Source: Alphaproteobacteria bacterium
Lineage (GTDB): Bacteria > Pseudomonadota > Alphaproteobacteria > GCA-2731375
Direction: 5' to 3'
Length of the DNA stretch: 47,280 nt
NCBI GenBank assembly: GCA_021776235.1
Contig: JAJFGG010000040.1
Coordinates: 1 to 47,280, forward strand
Below, piece by piece: positions 46,086-47,280 of this stretch; position 1 is the stretch's first letter, and every line of letters starts with the position of its first letter. Position numbers and translations under genes: made by a program. The notes beneath the pieces were generated by a model. It was not told where the DNA came from. It searched no databases and saw only the letters and a program-made list of their open reading frames with translations.

Positions 46086-46161
46086 GCCGGCGTAGCTCAG
46101 TTGGTAGAGCAACTGATTTGTAATCAGTAGGTCACGGGTTCGACTCCTGTCGCCGGCACCA
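46086..46161 (+). tRNA. tRNA-Thr (anticodon TGT)
   Basis: This is a 76-nt cloverleaf including an encoded CCA end. The acceptor arms are GCCGGCG and CGCCGGC, and the anticodon stem ACTGA/TCAGT is perfect around the loop TTTGTAA, giving anticodon TGT. The T arm is ACGGG-TTCGACT-CCTGT and the D arm includes GCTCAGTTGGTAGAGC. DNA to the right changes in character, so the 3' end may serve as an integration site. Confidence 0.97.
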
Positions 46162-46301
46162 ATGATTTCAATGAGTTGGCGTCCATTTCGAAATCTGCGA
46201 ATTAGTCATAGCTACCAATTAGCGACCAACTGCGATATAATCTGGCCAGCTGGCGCAATGATGATTGTGCCTAAGATTAATTGTTATCCAGGAATGGAAG
46301 C

Positions 46302-46553
46302 ATGGCCGGAAAACCCAGATCTAGGATCCGCTGCGGTGCCCGACGAAAACGGGATGGCCAGCCGTGCCAGTGCCCTGTCGAGCCCGGCCGGCGCCGCTGT
46401 CGATTCCATGGTGGCTTGTCGACCGGTCCGAAGACGGTCGAGGGGCGGGAACGGATTGCAATGGCGCAACGGGCTCGGTGGGCACGGTGGCGGTCGGCAC
46501 GGAATGACGAACACTCAATGACTGACCAAGCGATCCATCCGGCTGGCGGTTGA
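46302..46553 (+). CDS. HGGxSTG-motif small protein
   Basis: This basic 83-aa protein reads CGARRKRDGQPCQCPV, then GRRRCRFHGGLSTGPKTVEG and RERIAMAQRARWARWR. The cysteine set and the HGG-x-STG-x-KT core are typical of a small family common in alphaproteobacterial chromosomes, prophages and genomic islands, possibly zinc- and nucleic-acid-binding. The ATG at 46302 follows GGAATGGAAG. It is the first gene after tRNA-Thr, in keeping with an integrated element. Function is unknown. Confidence 0.75.
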   Translation: MAGKPRSRIRCGARRKRDGQPCQCPVEPGRRRCRFHGGLSTGPKTVEGRERIAMAQRARWARWRSARNDEHSMTDQAIHPAGG

Positions 46554-47200
46554 TAGCAAACGACACCCCCGGTCCCCTTCGAGGGGGGGGGTGGGGGTGC
46601 CAGAGTGTCTATATCTGTTCACCTATGTCGCACTCAATTGTCGTACTGCCTACCATTTGGGAAAGCATTGACCGACGAATAGATGCTCATCACAAGTGCA
46701 TAGGCGGCAGCGGAAGCCCTAGCGGAGAATATTTTCCGGTTTCGAATTTGCCATTGCCTAACATTTTTGCCCGTCATTCTTCTTATGGCCGGACCAGTGG
46801 GAGAATTTGGCACAGAACGTCGCAGTATACGCCTCAAAAGCTTGCGTCGAAACGGTGATTCTCCCAGAACAAACGTGGCACCTCAGATCATTATGATGCT
46901 GGTCTTGAGCTAGCAAATTATATGCTCATTGCAACTTTGGGCTACTAAAGCGAGGGCAAATCGTTCAAGCTCGGCCTGGTACAAAAACTTAGCTCACGCA
47001 TACGCGCTCGCAGGGGTTCTGACGAGCTCCTCCACGGAGTTTGTCGTGCTTAGAATAGTCAAGCGGCTCAAGGTCTTTGAGATCCCATGTGGGGATACGT
47101 GGCTAAGTATGCCAAAGAATTGGTGTTGCGCCAACGTCTCGCGTAATTCGGGAAAAAGAGACTCGACAATTTATACGGCGTAACCCGGAGAGAAGGAATA
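46554..47200. other. Gene-poor, less GC-rich stretch beyond tRNA-Thr
   Basis: I find no confident gene in these 647 bp. Open frames on the plus strand (about 46550-46858 and 46929-47183) lack ribosome-binding sites and coding-like composition. The left end has a C-rich/G-rich hairpin with arms CACCCCC (46564-46570) and GGGGGTG (46593-46599) enclosing a run of nine G (46583-46591). The right end carries the ribosome-binding site for the partial gene that follows. Confidence 0.45.
46564..46599. repeat. C/G-tract hairpin
   Basis: The arms CACCCCC and GGGGGTG pair, with an inner CCCC-TTCGA-GGGG stem-loop and an unpaired G surplus. The run of nine G, then T, then five G is unlike any other sequence in the window. 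It might form a very stable hairpin ending transcription of the HGGxSTG gene, although no T-tract follows. Confidence 0.5.
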
Positions 47201-47280
47201 ATGCGGCTCGAAGAGATCATACCAGGTAGTAGAATCCGAGGTATTGCAGGCCCCCAAATCGTCGAGGTCGTTGCTGCTCG
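47201..47280 (+). CDS. Start of a probable SNF2/DEAD-type helicase (DISARM-like), cut by window edge
   Basis: Only 26 full codons are visible: MRLEEIIPGSRIRGIAGPQI and VEVVAA. The ATG has GGAGAGAAGGAATA upstream, a strong ribosome-binding site. The pattern MRLE-x-x-x-PG-x-R-x-x-G followed by a V-rich strand recalls the N-terminus of large SNF2-like helicases of the DrmD/defence-island type. This rests on a short stretch from memory of the family and needs the rest of the gene. Position beyond tRNA-Thr supports a defence or genomic island. Confidence 0.5.
   Translation, partial: MRLEEIIPGSRIRGIAGPQIVEVVAA

Follow-up and report, generated by a model that had tools for sequence, protein, structure and literature searches.

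A probable primase-bearing integrative element at a tRNA-Thr(TGT) gene, with a putative hmaA start and an Hhe gene, in an alphaproteobacterial draft genome

The window analysed here is the whole of contig C108 (47,280 nt) of a draft 6.36-Mb alphaproteobacterial genome in 174 contigs (G000), and its right edge is thus an assembly break and not an arbitrary cut. Close to this edge lies the single tRNA gene of the window, a tRNA-Thr(TGT), and a search of the same genome with the end of the window found it to be the sole complete tRNA-Thr(TGT) copy. The tRNA gene and the features associated with it are listed in Table 1. The G+C content is 60.6% at 1-46085 vs 53.1% to the right of the tRNA. Among windows of equal length, 1.9% on the left and 5.8% on the chromosomal side of a second contig of the assembly, C145, are as low in G+C, so the drop taken alone is weak evidence. 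The low-G+C end encodes a small HGGxSTG-domain protein of 83 aa that has phage-protein relatives (phrog_6177, E 4e-8). It is followed by a stretch (46554-47200) in which no recognisable gene was found, and then by an open reading frame (ORF) of which 26 codons precede the contig end. The initial annotation had described the DNA right of the tRNA as less GC-rich and gene-poor and had pointed to an HGGxSTG protein; both descriptions hold. No DNA similarity of 46162-47280 to plasmids was found in a plasmid collection.

Table 1. Coordinates of the features at the tRNA-Thr(TGT) locus on C108 and of the repeat copy on C145
Feature	Position	Strand	Basis
tRNA-Thr(TGT), attachment-site gene, intact at left junction	46086..46161	+	ARAGORN; Rfam tRNA 76 bits
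attL core, 46-bp tRNA 3' part (anticodon loop to CCA)	46116..46161	+	exact copy on C145
Most likely left end of integrative element, 53.1% G+C, contig stops within	46162..47280		repeat + G+C
HGGxSTG-domain small protein, 83 aa, likely start ATG 46302	46302..46553	+	NF041373 59.2 bits (cut-off 29)
5' end (26 codons) of probable hmaA, cut by contig end, AGAAGG RBS directly upstream	47201..47280	+	PADLOC HmaA
Candidate attR, tRNA 3' fragment	G000:C145:31113-31158	-	46/46 bp identity to 46116-46161

A 46-bp segment of the tRNA-Thr gene has one extra copy in the assembly, which is located on C145. The repeat begins at 46116 and ends exactly at CCA, and both flanks diverge immediately. There is no tRNA gene at the C145 copy, where ARAGORN proposes a spurious SeC only. 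On one side of this copy the G+C content is 53.3%, similar to the right end of the window, vs 58.1% on the other side. A tyrosine integrase (Phage_integrase and Arm-DNA-bind_3 domains) starts 148 bp inside the copy on the low-G+C side, followed inward by a protein of 220 aa with no recognised function, a Toprim primase, a P4/D5 primase-helicase and an Hhe gene. The primases match TIGR01613 (325 bits), D5_N and Toprim_3; a Toprim protein together with a P4/D5 primase-helicase is typical of self-replicating integrative elements and phage satellites. Hhe is an intact helicase-nuclease of 1881 aa with DUF4011, an SF1-helicase, a C-terminal MTES_1575 nuclease and the Walker A, DEASQ and ECDG motifs (PADLOC 1339 bits). 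Given the exact 46-bp repeat, with the integrase, primases and Hhe beside its second copy, 46162-47280 most likely forms the left part of an integrative element whose right end lies on C145. In the standard arrangement of a tRNA-integrated tyrosine-integrase element, the whole tRNA stands at one end and the 3' fragment with the integrase at the other. The island edge that had been predicted at the tRNA 3' end, to be sought through a direct repeat and an integrase, is thereby borne out, and we regard such an edge as very probable. Its predicted defence cargo is represented by the Hhe gene, and the cargo would presumably defend against phage.

The integrase belongs to a kind found next to tRNA segments. 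Six related integrases in other genomes share 36-43% identity with it, and at all six loci the best tRNA-segment match ends in CCA and precedes the start of the integrase by 158-372 bp; ARAGORN calls no complete tRNA at that segment in five of them. At the nearest relative (43%) the fragment also resembles the 3' part of a TGT-anticodon tRNA. Viral contigs yielded one distant match only to the integrase, and related D5 primases are common there. These observations also bear on the reading that the locus is ordinary chromosome, in which a tRNA duplicate in decay would account for the repeat, and chance for the start of the ORF at 47201. Such a reading could appeal to the assembly gap and to the relatives, none of which shows an empty site, but a decayed duplicate would not stay exact over 46 bp with abrupt flank divergence, nor would it adjoin an integrase of the tRNA-site kind, and the 26 residues of the ORF score far above shuffled sequences (below). 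We consider it exceedingly improbable.

The tRNA-Thr site has been used more than once in the genus. In genus-mate G003 (C4) a different tyrosine integrase starts within 8 bp of tRNA-Thr(TGT) and is followed by a Prim-Pol/D5 primase; this is another type of element at the site. Segments in two other genus-mates, G002:C141:5034-5078 and G008:C515:8402-8450, match the 3' part of the tRNA-Thr (100% and 92%, respectively); both lie near contig ends, ARAGORN calls no tRNA gene there, and they are likely att remnants of other elements. In G009:C26 a truncated ORF resembling the start of an IS transposase was observed about 0.9 kb past the tRNA-Thr, at the contig end. In the comparison with related genomes that had been suggested, no empty tRNA-Thr site followed by the right flank of C145 was found; the contigs of the relatives end at or near the tRNA-Thr, and the genus shows no conserved arrangement of genes about this site. 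The right flank itself (TTATTCGTCACAATAATCCG), beyond the candidate attR, carries a DM13 gene and then a methyltransferase, and it was seen beside the tRNA-Thr in no relative. The methyltransferase is 84-90% identical to those of genus-mates, so C145 belongs to the genus and is unlikely to be a contaminant. The DM13-domain protein (G000:C145:30489-30971), just outside attR, has no relative in ten genus-mates; its gene may belong to an earlier insertion at this tRNA.

The ORF at the contig end was then compared with known defence helicases. When its 26 residues were searched against 5027 PADLOC models, HmaA was the sole match (model positions 2-26, E 0.048). By tblastn against the plasmid collection the top hit was Niveispirillum NZ_CP025613:465425, exactly where the HmaA match starts, and this was the only match covering most of the peptide (Niveispirillum HmaA N-terminus: RLEEIKNGASVRGIA). 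Of two Streptomyces tblastn hits, the one inspected is a chance match in another gene. Against 13 sequences the summed score is 595, compared with a mean of 254 and a maximum of 453 in 5000 shuffles; the sum includes one sequence in the wrong reading frame (L132) and one that is not HmaA (L140), both of which dilute the signal. HmaA N-termini contain a block RLEEI..G....GI, which is missing from two related helicases that match the HmaA core only. On these residues, the ORF probably begins a helicase gene of the hmaA type. The initial annotation had read it as the start of an SNF2-type helicase of a DISARM-like system. The resemblance to an SNF2-type defence helicase stands, and DISARM is unlikely. 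HmaA has DrmD and BrxH among its relatives, and the kinship with DrmD explains the first impression. A DrmD helicase on a DISARM-carrying island would draw on that same kinship and on the visible residues numbering just 26, yet no DrmD model of PADLOC matches them at E up to 10 and HmaA matches at its own first positions, the N-terminal block speaks for HmaA, and a scan of seven element proteins of C145 brought up no DISARM gene. We judge this alternative to be highly improbable.

Hma is a candidate defence system named for its helicase, methylase and ATPase (Payne et al. 2021, PMC8565338). In the same-class genome that was inspected in full, hmaA stands before hmaB and hmaC. The HmaA body, HmaB (DUF1156 methylase) and HmaC (ATPase) are absent from the draft assembly, in which the contig breaks inside the probable hmaA. 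The sole result of an SNF2 search in the genome, a helicase inside C133 (81.6 kb), is not the continuation of the ORF. Extending the window rightwards, as had been proposed, likewise led nowhere: no contig was found that overlaps the right end of C108 or the end of C145, and nothing links these two contigs physically. The absence of contig partners and of the Hma parts indicates that one or more stretches between them are missing. Of the drmA/B/C or methylase genes that were to be looked for, no drm hit appeared in the seven C145 proteins and no DUF1156 in the assembly, with the gap unsequenced.

We propose that a tyrosine-integrase element entered tRNA-Thr(TGT) at its 3' end by recombination at the 46-bp segment from the anticodon loop to CCA, which would have preserved a complete tRNA on the left and placed a fragment on the right, at C145. 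The element would continue past 47280 and, via the unsequenced gap, reappear at G000:C145:55118 and run down to 31159. C108 and C145 would then carry one end each of a single element, with the HGGxSTG protein and the hmaA-type start at the left. This hmaA-type gene most likely opens an Hma operon, in which the remainder of hmaA, then hmaB and hmaC, would lie past the contig end. From the sequence comparisons we give a probability of roughly 0.75 to a single element that spans both contigs with an Hma-type helicase at its left. The same data could be accommodated by two elements in tandem at the tRNA-Thr, one with the hmaA-like gene and the other with the integrase, primases and Hhe; the repeated use of the site in the genus, the unsequenced gap and the DM13 gene beside attR without a counterpart in relatives would suit such an array, but it would leave another copy of the 46-bp core, possibly within the gap, and the assembly has a single extra one. 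A tandem arrangement is unlikely.

The proposed element is of a familiar type, a tRNA-integrated, primase-bearing defence element. P4-type hotspots of antiviral systems are described in PMC9122126. Like P4-like satellites and other primase-bearing integrative elements, the element on C108 and C145 has a tRNA site, a tyrosine integrase with an arm-binding domain, a Toprim protein, a D5/P4 primase-helicase and defence cargo; it differs from P4-like satellites in that no capsid, terminase or packaging-control genes were recognised in its sequenced part, and in the additional large block of uncharacterised genes on C145. Its Hhe resembles the DUF4011-containing antiphage protein Hhe (NF042953) over the full length with all domains intact, and differs in scoring 1910 bits, narrowly below the NCBIfam equivalog cut-off of 2000, which makes it a somewhat divergent member. 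The similarity to Hma lies in the first 26 residues, which align with HmaA positions 2-26; here the first 80 bases alone are available, and the assembly contains neither hmaB nor hmaC. As to DISARM, DrmD and HmaA have a helicase core in common, and the difference is that the visible residues fit HmaA and not DrmD. "DISARM-like" is therefore better narrowed to "Hma-like", and DISARM is unlikely. The suggestion of a new or variant defence system beyond the window is not upheld: both recognisable systems are known, the assembly lacks the remainder of the helicase, and there is no evidence for a new system. The locus is a clear further example of a primase-bearing element, mobile through its integrase, that sits at tRNA-Thr(TGT) and brings antiphage genes. 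It also illustrates that a reading of 26 codons next to a contig break can be tested and narrowed to one particular defence family. As a speculation with a small chance of being right, the gap could hold a variant Hma operon that, together with Hhe and the adjacent low-G+C block of large unknown proteins at C145:43565-55118, would act as an unrecognised multi-gene defence or competition module of a satellite-like element.

This block (G000:C145:43565-55118, minus strand) is the lowest-G+C part of the element and comprises five large genes, encoding proteins of 570 aa, 831 aa, 1303 aa, 664 aa and 395 aa, the last of which reaches the contig end. Pfam gave no family match in the block besides a weak one to TssR_M (E 1e-5) in the 831-aa protein, which is without a PDB relative. 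The N-terminal parts of the 1303-aa and 664-aa proteins are alike.
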